From Desulfobacterales bacterium (GTDB lineage: Bacteria > Desulfobacterota > Desulfobacteria > Desulfobacterales > Desulfosalsimonadaceae): DNA of 64,000 nucleotides. Positions 1-6,709 of the stretch are shown here, in pieces (positions within the stretch are counted from its first letter, which is position 1; each line of letters begins with the position of its first letter). Location of the stretch: contig JAXHNP010000006.1 in assembly GCA_034520365.1 (NCBI GenBank), positions 1,047,001 through 1,111,000 on the forward strand. The letters run 5' to 3'. The notes under the pieces were generated by a model. It had not been told where the DNA came from. It was given only the letters and a program-made list of their open reading frames with translations, and did not search any database. Made by a program: the position numbers and the translations under genes.

Positions 1-17
1 CAAAATAGCTTTACAGG

Positions 18-1409
18 TTGAGTGCAAAAAAAAATATGATTACTCAAAAATGCAAGCAAATCCTTAACACCTCCTATGACGGGATTTATGTTACTGACAG
101 CTCCGGCAGAGCGCTTTATGTAAATGAGGCATATTTCCAGATCACCGGCCTGAAGCAAGATGACGTGTTTGACAAAACCCTGGATGAATTAATCAGTGGT
201 GGGTACATCAAAAGTTCAGTAGCCAAAAGGGTGCTGCAATCCAAAGAGGTGACAACCATTGTCCAGGAAATAGGCAGCAAACAGGTAATAATTACCGGGA
301 CCCCCTTGCTGGATGAAGATGGAGAGGTTGTTCTGATTGTAATTAATATTCGCGATATTTCTGAACTAAATTTTCTTCGGGAAAAGTATGAAGCCGCCCA
401 CCGCCTGTCAGAGCAATATTATTCAGAGCTTGCAGAACTCAGGCTGCAGCAGTTAAACATGCGGCAAATTGTCGCCAAAAGTAAAAAAATGCATGATCTT
501 ATTCAATTGGCAATGAGGGTATCCAGAGTTGATTCCACTGTGCTTATTAAAGGCGAGTCAGGGGTTGGCAAGGGGGTTTTTGCCGAGATGATCCACAATG
601 CGGGCTTGAGATCGGCCAAGCCCTTTATACATATCAATTGCGCCTCTATCCCGGAAAATTTAATGGAGGCCGAGTTTTTCGGCTATGAAAAAGGCGCTTT
701 TACGGGCGCAAAGGACCAGGGGAAAACCGGATTGTTTGAAATCGCCCATGAGGGCACCATCTTTCTTGATGAAATAGGCGACCTTCCTTTAATTCTGCAG
801 CCCAAATTGCTGCAGGTATTGGAGACAGGCGAGCTTCGCCCGATCGGAGGGGTCAACAGTAAATTTGTTGACGTGCGCGTGATTTCAGCGAGCAACAAGA
901 ATCTCGAAGAGATGGTAAATCAAAAGGAATTTAGGGAGGATTTGTATTATCGTTTGAAGGTGATTGAAATAGAAATTCCTCCCCTGCGGGAACGCAAAGA
1001 GGATATTCCCGCCCTGATTAACAATTACCTGCAAAGATTCAATGCGAGATATGGCTCAGATAAACAGCTTTCCATAGAAGCAATTCACCGGCTTGCAGCC
1101 CACCCCTGGCGGGGCAATATCAGGGAGTTGGAGAATTTAATTGAAAATTTATACGTTATGTCCGACAGTAAGTTCATTACGCTGCCTGATCTTCCAGACT
1201 ATATCGTCAGTCCCCAGCAGGGCCAGACGCCGGCAGACGAACATTTTTCGCCATTGGATATGAAAGAGGCGGTGGTTAAAATAGAAAAGCAAATGATCAA
1301 TGACGCTTTTAAGAAATGCAAAAATACTCGGGAAGCCGCCAGGCTGCTCGGTGTTAGTCAGCCTACACTAGTGCGGAAGATGAAAAGATATGGATTGCAG
1401 GGCTTGTAA
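18..1409 (+). CDS. PAS-domain sigma-54-dependent transcriptional activator
   Basis: Bacterial enhancer-binding protein of 463 residues. An N-terminal PAS-like sensor (about 12-110) and a helical linker precede the AAA+ domain. Walker A is GESGVGKG at 179-186, the sigma-54 contact loop is an intact GAFTGA at 226-231, and Walker B reads FLDEIGD. A Fis-type helix-turn-helix lies at the C terminus (about 425-463). There is no receiver domain, so the PAS probably senses a ligand or redox state. An in-frame stop at 6-8 limits the start to TTG 18 or ATG 36; neither has a clear ribosome site. The gene converges on the glycyl radical enzyme operon, whose upstream DNA holds a sigma-54-like promoter, so it is the likely local activator (inference). 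Family assignment is firm; the target is not proven. Confidence 0.9.
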   Translation: MSAKKNMITQKCKQILNTSYDGIYVTDSSGRALYVNEAYFQITGLKQDDVFDKTLDELISGGYIKSSVAKRVLQSKEVTTIVQEIGSKQVIITGTPLLDEDGEVVLIVINIRDISELNFLREKYEAAHRLSEQYYSELAELRLQQLNMRQIVAKSKKMHDLIQLAMRVSRVDSTVLIKGESGVGKGVFAEMIHNAGLRSAKPFIHINCASIPENLMEAEFFGYEKGAFTGAKDQGKTGLFEIAHEGTIFLDEIGDLPLILQPKLLQVLETGELRPIGGVNSKFVDVRVISASNKNLEEMVNQKEFREDLYYRLKVIEIEIPPLRERKEDIPALINNYLQRFNARYGSDKQLSIEAIHRLAAHPWRGNIRELENLIENLYVMSDSKFITLPDLPDYIVSPQQGQTPADEHFSPLDMKEAVVKIEKQMINDAFKKCKNTREAARLLGVSQPTLVRKMKRYGLQGL

Positions 1410-1410
1410 A

Positions 1411-1442
1411 AGAAAAATGCAGCCCCCGCTGTTGGGGGCCGC
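1411..1442 (-). terminator. Intrinsic terminator of the glycyl radical enzyme operon
   Basis: GC-rich hairpin at 1419-1442 (GCAGCCCCC / GGGGGCCGC with one A-C mismatch, 6-nt loop). On the minus strand it is followed by a U-rich run (ATTTTTCTTTTA). It lies 36 nt beyond the stop codon of the amidase gene and between the convergent regulator and operon. Confidence 0.75.
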
Positions 1443-1477
1443 AAAAATTAACCCGGGAGCTTCAGTCGGGCTGAAAC

Positions 1478-2380
1478 CTAAGCCAGAATATCCGCATATG
1501 CTTGCGGCTTTCTTTCATTTTTAAAGTTGATCACCTGAGTGACTTTTTCAATTTCCTTCAGATCTATTTCTTCAGCTATATGACCCCATTGCTCGTTTTC
1601 AATCTGCTTGATAATCTTACCGGATGGATGGATGATCGCGCTTTTCCCAAAGTGATCTCTAGCCTCGCGTTCCCCTTCATTTTGTTCGTCTCCGGCCTTA
1701 TTTACTTCCACAATATAAAACTGGTTTTCCATTGCTCTTACTTCCAGTTCCTTCAAGAAGGTCTCACTGCGGAAACCCCAGGTTGCCACGAGCACAAAAA
1801 CAATCTGAGCGCCTTTGACCAATAATGATCGATAGGCTTCCGGAAATGAGCGGTCAAAACAGATGAGAATTCCAATCTTGGTTCCGTTATCCAGCTCAAA
1901 AACAGGAAATTCCTTGCCGGCTCCGCCGAATTTTTCAAAGTAGTATTTTTCATCAGTGCCAAATGTCTCGGTATGGATTTTGGGCAGATGTACTTTTCGA
2001 TAAATTCCGACAAGTCCCTTGGTAGGGGACAGGAGACAGGCTGAATTGTAGTAATTTGTTGCTCCATTCTCAACAGCTTTCTCCATAAATGTCCCAATTA
2101 TGTGTGTGTTTAGTTCCTTCGCCCTTCGGGTCAGAGTTGTCACTGTTGGTCCGTCTTTAGTCTCAGCGTAATCAAAGAAGGAGTCTGGATCAATCCCGCC
2201 GACATTCATATCCGATTTCATCGGACCAAAGTATGGCGCGGTCATAAGCTCTGAAAAAGCCACAATATATGGTTGTTCTTTTTTAACCACGTTATCCAAT
2301 GCCTCGTTACAAAGTTTCATATTCTCTTCATAACTTCCTGGATACGGACCTGCTTGAATCCCAGCGACTTTAATTGACAT
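1478..2380 (-). CDS. Carbon-nitrogen hydrolase (nitrilase superfamily amidase)
   Basis: A 300-residue nitrilase-superfamily enzyme with the complete catalytic triad: Glu44 (FSELM), Lys129 (YRKVHLP) and Cys174 (ICFDRSFPE). The family hydrolyses amides, carbamoyl groups or nitriles to an acid plus ammonia. The DRSFPEAYR stretch after the Cys resembles N-carbamoyl-amino-acid amidohydrolases and beta-ureidopropionases more than true nitrilases, but the substrate cannot be read. GGAGG lies 6 nt before the ATG. It is the last gene of the glycyl radical operon, 59 nt after the activase. This suggests the radical chemistry makes or uses an amide- or carbamoyl-containing compound (inference). Confidence 0.88.
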   Translation of the reverse strand: MSIKVAGIQAGPYPGSYEENMKLCNEALDNVVKKEQPYIVAFSELMTAPYFGPMKSDMNVGGIDPDSFFDYAETKDGPTVTTLTRRAKELNTHIIGTFMEKAVENGATNYYNSACLLSPTKGLVGIYRKVHLPKIHTETFGTDEKYYFEKFGGAGKEFPVFELDNGTKIGILICFDRSFPEAYRSLLVKGAQIVFVLVATWGFRSETFLKELEVRAMENQFYIVEVNKAGDEQNEGEREARDHFGKSAIIHPSGKIIKQIENEQWGHIAEEIDLKEIEKVTQVINFKNERKPQAYADILA

Positions 2381-2439
2381 AACATACCTCCATAAAATAT
2401 TTTTTTGGTTTTTGGGGAGTCTTATAGCTTTTTATAAAT

Positions 2440-3408
2440 TTAGCCTCCAATTTTAATACGAAACTTTTGCGCATCAAATAAATTCGAAATATGTTCTATT
2501 TCATTCGGGGTCAAAGGTTCAACATCGTTCAGAGGGTAACTTTTTCCTAATTTTGCGTACTTTTGTACGCCTAAACGGTGATAGGGCAGCAAATGGACTT
2601 CCTCTATGGAACCGTTTAATGTTTTGAGATATTTAGCTGTTTCCTTCAAATGGCTCAGCTGATAATTAACCCCGGGTATAATCGGCATACGGATAATTAT
2701 CTGCTTTTGTTCAGACACAATTTGGTTTAGATTGTAAAGTATTTGTTCATTGGTGACCCCTGTGTATTCAAAATGTTTTAATGGATTAAGGTGCTTGATA
2801 TCAAAAAGAATCAAATCGGATTGGCGTACCAGTGATTTTAAAACGGGCCAATTGGCGTATCCATTAGTTTCTATCGCTGTATGGATTCCCTTAGAATTCA
2901 ACTTGGCTAAAAGAGCGGCTGCAAATTCCGGCTGAGCTGTTGGTTCGCCGCCGGATAGGGTTACGCCTCCTCCGGAATTTCTAAAAAAAGGTTCATCTTT
3001 AAGAATCTCCTCTGTCAGTTCTTTTAACTCTATTGAATAGCCACGCATTTGAATGGATTCGGTTGGACAAGCTTCGGTGCAAATTCCACAGATGTCGCAT
3101 TTGGCTCTGTTGATGATTATTTTGCCCTCCTCAAGGCATAGCGCCCCTTTAGGACAAGATTTAATACACAATCCACAGCCTATACACGAACTGTTGAAAA
3201 CCATTAATTCAGGCTTGGGGGATATGGATTCCGGGTTACAACACCAAACACAATTAAGAGGACAGCCTTTCATAAAGACTACCGTTCTAACTCCAGGACC
3301 ATCGTGCACACAATAGCGCTGAATATCAAAAATTGTGCCCTGTATGCTGTCGCTTCGTTCGTTTCTTGTTTTTCTTAATTCTTTTTTTCCAGGATCTAAA
3401 GAATACAT
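2440..3408 (-). CDS. Glycyl radical enzyme activating enzyme (radical SAM)
   Basis: A 322-residue radical SAM activase that installs the glycyl radical in the partner enzyme encoded just upstream. The SAM cluster motif is C49-x3-C53-x2-C56 (GCPLNCVWC). It is followed by a two-cluster ferredoxin insert (CIGCGLCIKSCP and CDICGICTEACP, about 75-115), as in activases of the CutC/HypD/BssA type but not of classical PFL. The SAM-binding GGE motif (LSGGEPT) is present. AGGAG lies 7 nt before the ATG. It sits 32 nt after the enzyme gene and is cotranscribed with it. Confident as an activase; its specificity follows the partner. Confidence 0.93.
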   Translation of the reverse strand: MYSLDPGKKELRKTRNERSDSIQGTIFDIQRYCVHDGPGVRTVVFMKGCPLNCVWCCNPESISPKPELMVFNSSCIGCGLCIKSCPKGALCLEEGKIIINRAKCDICGICTEACPTESIQMRGYSIELKELTEEILKDEPFFRNSGGGVTLSGGEPTAQPEFAAALLAKLNSKGIHTAIETNGYANWPVLKSLVRQSDLILFDIKHLNPLKHFEYTGVTNEQILYNLNQIVSEQKQIIIRMPIIPGVNYQLSHLKETAKYLKTLNGSIEEVHLLPYHRLGVQKYAKLGKSYPLNDVEPLTPNEIEHISNLFDAQKFRIKIGG

Positions 3409-3440
3409 GTATAGACTCCTAAAGAGAGTTCGAGACTTAT

Positions 3441-5906
3441 CTATATGTTCTGGATTGATCTAAGGATAATATCGTCTTGCAGTTTTTTGTCCAATTCCAC
3501 AAAAAAAGCACTGTAACCCGCGACTCTGACAACTAAATTCCGGTAACTCTCGGGATTCGCTTGTGCTTCTCGAAGGAGTTCAGGAGAAACCACGTTCGTT
3601 TGAACATGCAATCCTTTAAGATCTACCATATACGTTTTTAAGACATCCGCAAACCTTCTGACCTTGTCTTGTTCGGCTACCATTGTAGGTGTTGTACTAA
3701 TAAAGAGAGAGGCAGCATTGGTATGAGATAAGTCAAGCTTACTGGCAGATTTGCATACAGCAGTCGGTCCATTCTTATCACATCCGCTGGTGGGGGTTAT
3801 CCCAGTTTGATGCGGTGCAAAAGCTTTTCGCCCATTAGGGGTTGCGCCTGTCGCCATGCCAAGGGGGACATGGAAGGTCACAGAATGAAATTCCGGCCAC
3901 ATTTTGCCGCCATTTGGATTGTAGCAATTTTGGACGCTATCATAATATAGATGGGCCGCTTGCTTAACTATATCATCTACTTCATTTTCATCATTTCCAT
4001 ATTTTTTTATTTTATTAAGTAAAGTCTGTCTTAATTCCTCCATGCCTTCGAAGTTCCTCTCCAACGCATGAATTAAATCTTGCAGATCAATTTTCCGGTC
4101 TTCGAATACCATTTTCTTAATTGCGTAAAGGGATTCACCCGCTGTAACAATACCGACCCCTGTTATGGTACCCCCCCAGTTATATCTAGCGCCACCATTA
4201 GTTAAGTCCTTCCCCTTCTCAATACAATCATTTAAAAGGATAGAAGTATATACCAACGGCAACTCTTCTTTAAGGATATCTGTTTCAGCGATAATTCCAC
4301 TCTCTTCTACTTTTAAGGTGTAGTCGAGCTGGTGTTTGAATGCTTCCATTACTTCATCAAATGTTTTAAAGGTTTTTACATCACCGGTAGAAATACTTAT
4401 TTTTTTTCGGGTCAGCATATCCATGCCATCGTTTAAGGTAAGTTCCAGTACTTTAGGTATATTGTACCATCCCATATGTAATTTTCCGTAAAGTCCATGT
4501 GCACATACAGTGGAACAACCAAGCATTGTGTAATCCCGCGCATCATCTAAAGAAAGACCGCGCTCCACAAGCCCTTTGATAACCGCTTCATCACCAATGA
4601 GCTGGGGAAGGCCACCTCCTTGTTTATTTACGATTACTGCTTTATCTATAAGTGGTTTGGGAGAGTGTTTGTGGATTCTAAGGCTGGTTTGCGGTCTGGG
4701 TAATTGGACATGCGCCTGGGCTTCTAATAGCATATATGAAAGTTCATTGGTAGCGTCATTTCCGTGTTTATCGACACCCCCGATAGTAATGTGATTGTTT
4801 ACATTTATATTGCCGGAACGGCCAAACTTAATCAGGGAATAGCTTGGTCTGGGCTTAGGCGTTTCACTGCCTTTGATAAAATACAAATCAAGAAGTTCCT
4901 GAGCCTCTTCTTTTGATATAAAGTTTTTCTGTAAATCCTTTTTATAGTAGGGATAAAGATACTGGTCGATACGTCCAGGAGCTGGACCTTCTCCACCATG
5001 CTCACTAAGAGCAATTAATTGGGTGAACCAACAGGATTGTAAAGCTTCATGAAAACTCCTGGCAGGTCGGGCCGGCACTTGACTGCATATATCAGCGATC
5101 TTAAGAAGCTCTTTTTTTCTTTGAGGGCTATTTTCTATGTTGGCAAGTCTTTTTGCTTCATCTGCATAACGCTTTCCGAAGTCGGCCATTGCTTGGCAAA
5201 TAGTTGCGGCGGCGCGCCAGAACATGACTTTTGAATTATACTCCGGGTCTTGTTTGGGTAATTGGGAAATGTTTTTCTCAATCTCTTCTTTTAAACCCAA
5301 GAAGCCCGAGGCTAAAACTTTTTTCACATCGATCATTGTTCGCCCCACAGCAGCTGGATCCATTGATTCCATGTATACCAGATGATCCCTTAGAACTTTG
5401 TCTTGTTCAGGCAGCCGCTCCCAGGTTAAATGCCTCAGCGATTTTCCTTTCCAATATGAAACAACTTCTTTTAAATCCTTTTTGACATCTTCTGTCATTA
5501 GGGGAATTTCGACCCCGATATTTTTTTGGTCTTGAATTTTCAACTCTTCTTCAAGCCAAGCAGTATCAACTTCAGGGAAGATCGGAGCCCCCACATAAGC
5601 TTTAGTATTTTGACCAACAATTAATTCATTGTCCATTATATAGACGCTCATTTTTTTCAGCAGAGCCTGCATCGCCATAGCTCGTCGCTCTAGAATTGGT
5701 TTGCCTTCTGTTTCTTGATATGATTGCGTTATCAGGCGAGCCCTTTCCGAGCAGAAATAATAGGGTTTTGCGTGATTCAATAAATTTTGTCTTACTTTAA
5801 GAACCCTTTCGGTTGGCTGTGTGAGATTTGAAGTTGCGTTATCCTCAAATTTATCAAGTTTGGTATCAATCTTTGTTTTTTCAGTTGCGACGCTAAAGGT
5901 TTCCAT
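3441..5906 (-). CDS. Glycyl radical enzyme of unassigned substrate
   Basis: An 821-residue glycyl radical enzyme. The C-terminal radical loop RVAGYSA contains Gly797. The thiyl cysteine is Cys464 in DYTMLGCSTVC, and a second Cys follows at 468. Diol dehydratases, CutC, HypD and isethionate lyase carry GCVE, where Glu helps catalysis; here the position two after Cys is Thr. The N terminus (ERARLITQSYQETEG, DNELIVG) places it in the broad CutC/HypD/BssA clade rather than PFL. The start chosen is ATG 5906, with AAGGAG 6 nt upstream; a longer frame reaches 5972 but crosses the predicted promoter. The gene is followed by its activase and an amidase. The enzyme class is certain; the reaction is unknown and may be new. 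Confidence 0.9.
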   Translation of the reverse strand: METFSVATEKTKIDTKLDKFEDNATSNLTQPTERVLKVRQNLLNHAKPYYFCSERARLITQSYQETEGKPILERRAMAMQALLKKMSVYIMDNELIVGQNTKAYVGAPIFPEVDTAWLEEELKIQDQKNIGVEIPLMTEDVKKDLKEVVSYWKGKSLRHLTWERLPEQDKVLRDHLVYMESMDPAAVGRTMIDVKKVLASGFLGLKEEIEKNISQLPKQDPEYNSKVMFWRAAATICQAMADFGKRYADEAKRLANIENSPQRKKELLKIADICSQVPARPARSFHEALQSCWFTQLIALSEHGGEGPAPGRIDQYLYPYYKKDLQKNFISKEEAQELLDLYFIKGSETPKPRPSYSLIKFGRSGNINVNNHITIGGVDKHGNDATNELSYMLLEAQAHVQLPRPQTSLRIHKHSPKPLIDKAVIVNKQGGGLPQLIGDEAVIKGLVERGLSLDDARDYTMLGCSTVCAHGLYGKLHMGWYNIPKVLELTLNDGMDMLTRKKISISTGDVKTFKTFDEVMEAFKHQLDYTLKVEESGIIAETDILKEELPLVYTSILLNDCIEKGKDLTNGGARYNWGGTITGVGIVTAGESLYAIKKMVFEDRKIDLQDLIHALERNFEGMEELRQTLLNKIKKYGNDENEVDDIVKQAAHLYYDSVQNCYNPNGGKMWPEFHSVTFHVPLGMATGATPNGRKAFAPHQTGITPTSGCDKNGPTAVCKSASKLDLSHTNAASLFISTTPTMVAEQDKVRRFADVLKTYMVDLKGLHVQTNVVSPELLREAQANPESYRNLVVRVAGYSAFFVELDKKLQDDIILRSIQNI

Positions 5907-5967
5907 GTTTGTCTCCTTGCAAAAAAGTTTTAGATATTTATTATAAGAATAATTGATTAAGATAGAA

Positions 5968-5983
5968 TTCAATTTTTATGCCA
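5968..5983 (-). promoter_or_regulatory. Putative sigma-54 promoter of the glycyl radical operon
   Basis: On the minus strand the 16-nt site reads TGGCAT-N5-TTGAA against the consensus TGGCAC-N5-TTGCA. The -24 GG is intact and the spacing is exact. The -12 GC is GA, which weakens the match. A transcript would start near 5955, about 50 nt before the ATG. A sigma-54 activator gene at the other end of the locus supports it. Confidence 0.5.
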
Positions 5984-6333
5984 GAATATTTTCTAATTTA
6001 ATATTTTTTAACTATTTGATTTAAGCTAATATAAATATAAAATGAGTATATACACATGTAATTTAAGGCCATATGTTTGATGCATATTTGAATCACCGTT
6101 TCGTTTGTGAATCACTGTTTTACTTTAGGTTTGGTAGGTTTTCGTCTCCACTATCGCCTTAAATGTTAGTTACCAGCGGGTTTTTCCTGAGTGAGTTCTC
6201 CGTGGCGGTTCGTGGGTGCTGGTTTTCTGGATGTTCCAGGTACTATTTGCCGCGACCGTGGGTCTGAGGGGCCTTCTGAGAATGAGTTGATAAATTTCAT
6301 TTAGGTGCTGTTTTTTAAATGTTTCGAAATTCC
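5984..6333. other. Gene-free stretch upstream of the glycyl radical operon
   Basis: About 350 bp with no credible reading frame. The first 140 bp are very AT-rich and hold the direct repeat at 6089-6120. From about 6160 the composition shifts to that of the following genes, marking the edge of the AT-rich island. Confidence 0.5.
6089..6120. promoter_or_regulatory. Direct repeat, candidate enhancer for the sigma-54 activator
   Basis: Two 13-bp copies of TGAATCAC(C/T)GTTT at 6089-6101 and 6108-6120, 19 bp apart and on the same face. They lie about 105-140 bp upstream of the putative -24 element, the usual distance for an enhancer-binding protein. No binding data exist; this is inference from position and repetition. 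Confidence 0.45.
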
Positions 6334-6709
6334 CTATCGTTCATCGGTTAACCAATGAATGTATGACGGCCGGAGAATATAGGCATCTCCAGTTCTCCAG
6401 GTGTTTTCAGCGGTCTGGACAAGCACCCGGTACCGCTGATAGGCATCTCCGTCGAATGCATCAATTCGTTGCAAGGCGGGCTGATTCAGATTAAAATAAG
6501 TTGTTCTGCCTGTATGGTCGCCGGGCCGGGGGGATGATGGCCAGGCAAACCTTGGCCTTTCCCCGGAATCGGCCGTAATTTTTTAATATTCCCGGTTTTT
6601 TGTGAAAGTCCCGGCCCGCAATACGGACAAATATTGACGGAACCATTAAAGTTCCGTAAAGAAACAAATTTGTTGTGTTCATCGGATCGATTTTTTCATA
6701 TGGTGGCAT
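6334..6709 (-). pseudogene. Gamma-glutamylcyclotransferase (AIG2-like) family gene with one frameshift
   Basis: The first frame (6491-6709) gives NLFLYGTLMVPSIF and VCLAIIP, the substrate-loop signature (YGTL) and core of the AIG2/GGCT-like fold. It then runs out of frame. The next frame resumes within the same segment as TTYFNLNQPALQRIDAFDGD and AYQRYRVLV and ends at a stop at 6334. Together they make a typical protein of about 120 residues. The break lies in the C/G run at about 6521-6533, so it is either one real indel or a homopolymer sequencing error. No ribosome site precedes the likely ATG. It would act on gamma-glutamyl amines or peptides if intact. Confidence 0.7.

Follow-up and report, generated by a model that had tools for sequence, protein, structure and literature searches.

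The window analysed here, a stretch of 64,000 nucleotides from a bacterium of the order Desulfobacterales (family Desulfosalsimonadaceae; GenBank assembly GCA_034520365.1, contig JAXHNP010000006.1, positions 1,047,001 to 1,111,000), harbours a compact operon of three intact open reading frames (ORFs) on the minus strand (positions 1478-5906). In the order of the operon, these code for an oxygen-sensitive glycyl radical enzyme (GRE), a radical-SAM GRE activase and a nitrilase-superfamily amidase, with intergenic gaps of 32 bp (GRE-activase) and 59 bp (activase-amidase). The operon is real, intact and unusual, its main points of note being the joint replacement of residues in the active site of the GRE and the location of the genes on an island.

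The GRE gene (3441..5906, minus strand) encodes a protein of 821 amino acids which is matched by PF02901 (641.9 bits) and PF01228 (93.9 bits). The ATG at 5906 was preferred as its start over the alternative TTG at 5972 from the ORF list, because AAGGAGA lies just 5' of the ATG and a sigma54-like site overlaps the TTG. The residue at the thiyl site, Cys464 (codon 4515..4517, minus strand), is found in the motif GCSTVC and occupies a column that is Cys in each of the 45 other rows of the alignment, while the glycyl radical site, Gly797 (codon 3516..3518, minus strand), lies in the motif RVAGYSA, as read from the translation and the alignments. The activase of 322 amino acids (2440..3408, minus strand) carries Radical_SAM and Fer4 domains as well as a CX3CX2C motif, and scores well above the cut-off of TIGR02494 (353.8 versus 174.35 bits). 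These features, together with the fold of the modelled protein, place the enzyme in the GRE superfamily. A pattern match to the GRE (one found versus 0.00 expected) is not an independent proof, since the pattern was derived from the same sequence. The product of the third gene (1478..2380, minus strand; 300 amino acids) belongs to the nitrilase superfamily, as judged from its CN_hydrolase domain (151.7 bits) and the complete triad Glu44-Lys129-Cys174. A sequence-only reading of the window had numbered correctly both this triad and the residues around Cys464, including the absence of Glu at position +2 and the second Cys at +4.

The GRE falls below the cut-offs of the curated models of the related families: HypD (630.8 versus 1100 bits), the sulfopropanediol enzymes HpsG (NF048011, 544 versus 1000) and HpfG (NF048009, 543.4 versus 1000), the choline TMA-lyase CutC (TIGR04394, 492.4 versus 1050), and the arylacetate decarboxylases IAD (NF033718, 440.5 versus 1100) and HPAD (NF033715, 363.3 versus 1150). 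Even the broad PFL2-3 model was narrowly missed (664.1 versus 678.2 bits). Since the radical residue is Gly797, the protein does not belong to the aminoacyl radical enzymes with Ala, Ser or Thr at this site. The best full-length sequence matches in the PDB were glycerol dehydratase (1r8w, 550.1 bits), propanediol dehydratase (526.9 bits) and HypD (501.4 bits), while N-methyl-4-hydroxyproline dehydratases (8id1, 455.8 bits; 8iof, 421.6 bits) and HplG (337.1 bits) were compared by overall score only. The weakest full-length matches above PFL were MasD (287.9 bits), TutD (272.1 bits) and 4-hydroxyphenylacetate decarboxylase (239.9 bits). The X-succinate synthases, represented by MasD and TutD, were likewise compared through these PDB sequence matches only, and the operon has no genes for small subunits.

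Phylogenetic analysis gave no fixed position to the GRE. In a tree of 46 rows calculated under a simple model it is a weak sister of a wider HypD-containing clade (Shimodaira-Hasegawa-like approximate likelihood ratio test (SH-aLRT) value of 81, end branch of 1.1), and in a tree of 36 rows calculated under a mixture model it stands beside a group of GREs with the motif GCLEP (SH-aLRT 90, end branch 1.48). As the position differs between the models, the protein is best treated as an orphan. A placement inside the HypD clade, defined by seven rows of the HypD-model type, was rejected with the 36-row set (approximately unbiased test, p = 0.000127); this group was defined after inspection of the first tree. 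The 46 rows are not a random set, as eight of them were chosen by a pattern requiring Thr at Cys+2, and the second tree left out ten rows (L063, L006, L053, L062, L027, L014, L036, L022, L081 and L085) to accommodate the slower model. The row of L063 is incorrect at its C-terminal end. Within the searches made, the GRE very probably represents an intact orphan subfamily. The sequence-only reading is supported in part, given the curated cut-offs, the rejected HypD placement and an identity of at most about 41% to anything listed; that the enzyme is not a lyase or dehydratase does not follow, because eliminases head both the sequence and the fold matches.

The active site departs from those of the known eliminases. 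In B12-independent glycerol/1,2-propanediol dehydratases, the closest full-length and structural relatives, the residues concerned are the Glu of the CXE motif and, by numbering and roles which we take to be those of glycerol dehydratase, His164, His281, Ser282 and Asp447. The GRE of the window has Thr466, Arg189 (codon 5340..5342, minus strand), Glu306 (codon 4989..4991, minus strand), Gly307 and His477 at the respective columns, so that none of the five is retained. Among the 45 other rows, Arg at the first of the His columns occurs in one row (L039), Glu at the second in none and His at the Asp447 column in one. If only the active-site half of the protein is considered, HypD is the top match in the PDB (6vxc, 182 bits), and its Cys loop is of equal length, yet its residues are changed as well: its His160, Glu436 and Tyr450 columns are occupied by Arg189, Thr466 and Trp480, the last residue being present in 0 of the 45 other rows. 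According to the study of C. difficile HypD, the replacements E436Q, H160Q, D278N and D339N leave the enzyme inactive, and Tyr450 contributes to binding of the carboxylate (PMC7077986).

The missing Glu at Cys+2 and the second Cys at +4, which the sequence-only reading had put forward as the mark of a new reaction and as a special feature, turned out to be less telling. Of the 30 GREs of loci L008-L036, the nearest matches from the class, 23 carry Glu at Cys+2, six Ala and one Val; thus, seven also lack Glu, and a member with the motif GCVT passes the HypD model without it, so the absence of this residue is not diagnostic alone and was rejected as a standalone sign. The +4 Cys was discarded as a distinctive feature, since the column is variable in the 46-row alignment. 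The joint replacement of the acid-base positions by Arg189, Glu306 and His477 is the stronger sign and, judging from the alignment, may point to a different chemistry or to a very different substrate.

Other variants of the Cys loop were encountered during this comparison. GREs of the GCVT rather than GCVE type are present in ten loci (L053-L057, L059, L060 and L062-L064) from Bipolaricaulota, archaea, Phycisphaeraceae, Lentisphaeria and one further bacterium. The member from L056 scores 1204 bits with the HypD model (cut-off 1100), despite Glu436 being essential in C. difficile HypD, and the automatic naming of the GCVT enzymes as HypD may be wrong. The GRE homologues of L058 (4438-6852) and L061 (3102-5513) have Thr at the radical site (RVATYS) and a GCAT/GCFT Cys loop, and resemble the threonyl radical enzymes described in PMC11528403. 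A group of GREs in loci L009-L012, L014 and L017 carries Ala at Cys+2 (GCVA), together with a Cys at +5. The genome of the window itself encodes two more GREs (L005:8329-11343 and L006:8500-11016), both with Glu at Cys+2 and with an adjoining activase-like gene, the activases being recognised by eye.

An AlphaFold2 model of the GRE, built from 12 sequences, is of moderate confidence (predicted local distance difference test score (pLDDT) of 74.1, predicted template modelling score of 0.79). Its best structural matches are propanediol and glycerol dehydratases (5i2g with a Z score of 41.5; 1r8w first in a second search).

The amidase shares the Glu-Lys-Cys triad with the N-carbamoyl hydrolases of the nitrilase superfamily and its best matches in the PDB, at 73-75 bits, include N-carbamoylputrescine amidohydrolase (74.9 bits), 2vhh (73.5 bits; record name CG3027-PA, which we take to be a beta-ureidopropionase) and N-carbamoyl-D-amino-acid amidohydrolase (73.3 bits). 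These specificities are nearly tied, and the protein remains far below the AguB cut-off (TIGR03381, 106.3 versus 410.25 bits). It is a fair guess that the substrate is an N-carbamoyl or amide acid. A model made from the single sequence was unusable (pLDDT 36.1). In accordance with the earlier view of the amidase as an unusual partner for a GRE, no similar hydrolase was found beside the GREs of 65 loci, which represent 62 distinct places, as three pairs come from identical places, and which were inspected over flanks of 0.5 to approximately 10 kb.

Relatives of the GRE were sought by whole-protein searches in drawn samples of the class and phylum of the window, and by two pattern scans in other phyla. 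The top identity among the matches listed was 41%, over part of the length, in 291 genomes of the class and 40% in 395 genomes of the phylum, the two draws overlapping. Scanning 84,980 species with peptides, an approach that needs exact stretches of eight residues, gave 19 pattern matches but no relative. The second scan of the same species, directed at Cys loops with Thr at Cys+2, yielded 13 stretches, 12 of them with GREs, among which there was neither a GCST motif nor an identity above 37%, and no amidase was found in these stretches. In plasmid records 146 matches were obtained, all below 60% identity, with 37.9% as the highest among the best 40 of the 146. Relatives of the nitrilase were confined to the genome of the window itself, both among the 291 class genomes (1/291, E 1e-60) and among 36 genomes of the family (1/36, E 1e-40). 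Titles and the beginnings of abstracts, subscription papers being mostly out of reach, contained neither a GRE-nitrilase pairing nor a GCST motif. The best reading of these comparisons is that the GRE subfamily is known from one genome.

An acquired, foreign-looking island ends on its right-hand side with the operon. The first 6459 positions of the window (1..6459) form the right end of an inserted low-GC segment of approximately 46 kb, which starts about 39 kb before the window and whose right edge lies before position ∼6799, perhaps before 6459. Between ∼1,008.5 and 1,053.5 kb of the contig the GC content is 0.40-0.49 (2.5-kb blocks) versus 0.48-0.58 in the flanks, and at third codon positions it is 0.37 in the GRE gene versus 0.64 in the next gene outside the island. 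In the congeners G147 and G060 the island-flanking genes, coding for a large kinase with a response regulator and for a PtsP-like protein, adjoin each other; the island is therefore absent from both congeners with a readable site, the third one (G673) being uninformative, as it yielded part of the PtsP-like gene only. Homology to the congeners stops at 1,007,604 on the left and restarts at 1,053,799-1,053,824 on the right, apart from one weak 40-bp match at 1,053,459 in G060. No tRNAs were found at the island edges, and the comparison of the edges for repeats of at least 13 bases revealed no direct repeats and two inverted 13-mers.

The gene content of the island includes several candidates for the metabolism of amides and dicarboxylates. 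For a hydantoinase-like protein the TIGR02033 score is 314.4 bits against a cut-off of 393.25. An isochorismatase-family protein matches N-carbamoylsarcosine amidohydrolase at 148 bits, and a hydantoin-racemase-like protein matches 3qvk at 54 bits (Pfam Asp_Glu_race, 83.1 bits). A CitE-like protein reaches 184.5 bits (cut-off 443.4), and of two MmgE/PrpD-like proteins the one tested matches IRG1 (122.5 bits) and IDS-epimerase (121.3 bits). In addition, the island contains two fumarase-type (fumarase/mesaconase-like) gene pairs, a dicarboxylate-type transporter, two Oxidored_FMN reductases, a DUF1302/DUF1329/RND set, a SucCD-like coenzyme A (CoA) ligase, a fumarate-reductase-like set and a second sigma54-type activator. 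Of these, the names of SucCD, DUF1329, RND and the transporter, of the fumarase beta subunits and second fumarase pair, and of the second activator were assigned by eye, as was that of a USP protein.

Putative regulatory signals are arranged in order around the operon. A sigma54-like site, TGGCATAAAAATTGA (5969..5983, minus strand), is located 62 bp before the GRE ATG, and a terminator-like hairpin of 10 pairs, eight of them G-C, followed by a T tail, lies 3' of the amidase gene (1418..1443, minus strand). The two gaps between the three genes contain no terminator-like sites, and two weak ones lie inside the GRE and activase genes. Convergent with the operon is a gene for a PAS-sigma54 activator (18..1409, plus strand, start codon uncertain) with Sigma54_activat and PAS domains, which is a possible regulator of the operon. 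Its PAS/AAA/HTH part aligns with PrdR, presumably the sigma54 activator of proline reductase genes, at 423.9 bits (NF041552), whereas the cut-off of 795 is missed and the first 129 profile positions are unmatched.

The reading favoured here, which we hold tentatively and at only slightly less than an even chance as a whole, is that of a catabolic operon on an acquired island with its own GRE subfamily working as follows. In GREs generally, activation of the glycine corresponding to Gly797 is followed by formation of a thiyl radical on the cysteine corresponding to Cys464 and by abstraction of hydrogen. Here, the activase would cleave S-adenosylmethionine to give a Gly797 radical, which would pass to Cys464, and the thiyl radical would abstract hydrogen from a small substrate that probably bears a carboxylate and might be held by Arg189. 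An eliminase-type cleavage of a C-N or C-O bond could ensue, with Glu306 and His477 taking part in proton transfer instead of the usual Glu/His pair, after which the hydrogen would be returned. The nitrilase would release ammonia by hydrolysing an amide or N-carbamoyl group, either in the substrate or in the product, and the product may enter the C4/C5-dicarboxylate genes of the island (fumarase/mesaconase-like, SucCD-like CoA ligase and CitE-like lyase). Eliminase-type chemistry with a different acid-base set is, on balance, probable. That an amide or ureido compound is part of the pathway seems plausible, though somewhat short of an even chance; the hydantoinase-, racemase- and carbamoylsarcosine-amidase-like genes of the island fit such a substrate, without proving one. 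Unlikely, yet worth stating, is the more ambitious proposal that an amide- or ureido-compound pathway here includes a GRE for the first time. In it, thiyl-initiated cleavage by a radical C-N (or C-O) lyase lacking the CXE Glu would, together with a nitrilase-family hydrolase, dismantle a hydantoin-, imide- or N-carbamoyl-type compound to sustain anaerobic growth. Uric-acid reduction and, on general chemical grounds, imide- or nicotinate-type pathways were also considered as possibilities for the island. The uric-acid reduction cluster, as described in PMC12507026, uses XdhD, YgfK, SsnA, HyuA and others, and the hydantoinase-type gene is the only one in common with the island.

Several points weigh against the favoured reading. 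Its chief weakness is that the searches made found no ortholog of the GRE, and consequently no co-conservation of the GRE, the amidase and the island genes. The residue equivalences come from sequence alignment at 30-40% identity, HypD Asp278 falls into an alignment gap, so that Glu306 may or may not replace it, and the functions assigned to Arg189, Glu306 and His477 are inferred. In the model, pLDDT drops below 50 for residues 179-181, 353-368 and 785-806, which makes the pocket and the glycyl loop unreliable, and for this reason no pocket geometry was drawn from it. Some 30 kb separate the hydantoinase gene from the GRE gene, and the former may serve another pathway. Finally, the sigma54-like site was recognised post hoc: the pattern was loosened after the site had been noticed and, with one mismatch, its 15 matches in the window versus 10.7 expected are unremarkable.

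Of the other explanations, the one that survives best is that the GRE and the amidase are not linked, the latter serving nitrogen salvage or the hydantoin-like genes of the island and the former acting on a separate substrate. Such an arrangement is a considerable possibility, less than even: no ortholog was found that shows the pair conserved, none of the 65 GRE loci has a similar hydrolase, and the island seems to be composed of multiple modules, with the second activator named by eye; however, the amidase gene is co-directional and 59 bp 3' of the activase gene, and the terminator-like site comes right after it and not in the gaps. Less probable, in our view, is a conventional diol- or hydroxyproline-type dehydratase with a drifted active site and a related hydroxylated substrate. 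The glycerol and propanediol dehydratases and HypD are indeed the top sequence and fold matches, and the GCVT member that passes the HypD model suggests that Thr can stand in for Glu in that scaffold. On the other hand, all five columns of glycerol dehydratase are changed, the placement within HypD is rejected and HypD E436Q and H160Q are inactive (PMC7077986). The chances are slimmer still for a non-eliminase reaction, such as decarboxylation, cleavage of a C-C bond or radical addition to a dicarboxylate metabolised by the island, be it fumarate or another one. It would agree with the loss of the CXE Glu and with the two fumarase-type pairs and the fumarate-reductase-like set, partly named by eye, but fumarate-adding enzymes and 4-hydroxyphenylacetate decarboxylase are the weakest full-length matches above PFL, and extra small subunits are absent from the operon. 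A decaying or inactive acquired enzyme, as might be suspected from the single genome, the long end branch (1.1 and 1.48) and a frameshift in the PrpB-like island gene, is very improbable in view of the open frames, the intactness of the thiyl Cys, the radical Gly, the cysteines of the activase and the triad of the amidase, and the ordered operon signals (hairpin and sigma54-like site).

Should the favoured reading of a distinct catabolic GRE be true, the subfamily would have nearly all of its acid-base residues unlike those of the known eliminases and would reveal which parts of the active site are dispensable; radical chemistry would also be linked to the way in which amide or ureido compounds are degraded anaerobically. 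As long as neither a second genome nor an activity has turned up, this is one orphan GRE among many, and one must bear in mind that many abundant gut GREs are without known function, as stated in a review (PMC11574389).

A few observations concern the remaining genes of the island. The PrpB-like lyase gene (L048:4579-5960) is frameshifted and represents either a pseudogene or an assembly error. A protein of 434 amino acids (L048:14468-15769) went unmatched by Pfam and NCBIfam under the thresholds applied; its relatives, with 27-37% identity, occur in six of 222 other genomes of the phylum, and the three of the six loci that were inspected contain no further shared island gene, except for a weak PrpB-like match in one. 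Relatives of the hydantoinase were found in its own genome only (1/216 genomes, E 1e-110), and those of the second PrpD-like protein in five of 291 genomes (E 1e-90, its own included), the four others being at most 39% identical. Loci L104-L107 share a conserved cluster of a GCLEP-type GRE gene with two SDR-type genes and with CoA-transferase-type genes, named by eye, as were the MmgE/PrpD-like genes of L104-L106. In all four stretches no match to the activase of the window was detected, and L107 contains a second GRE. The island of the window, too, encodes MmgE/PrpD-like proteins.

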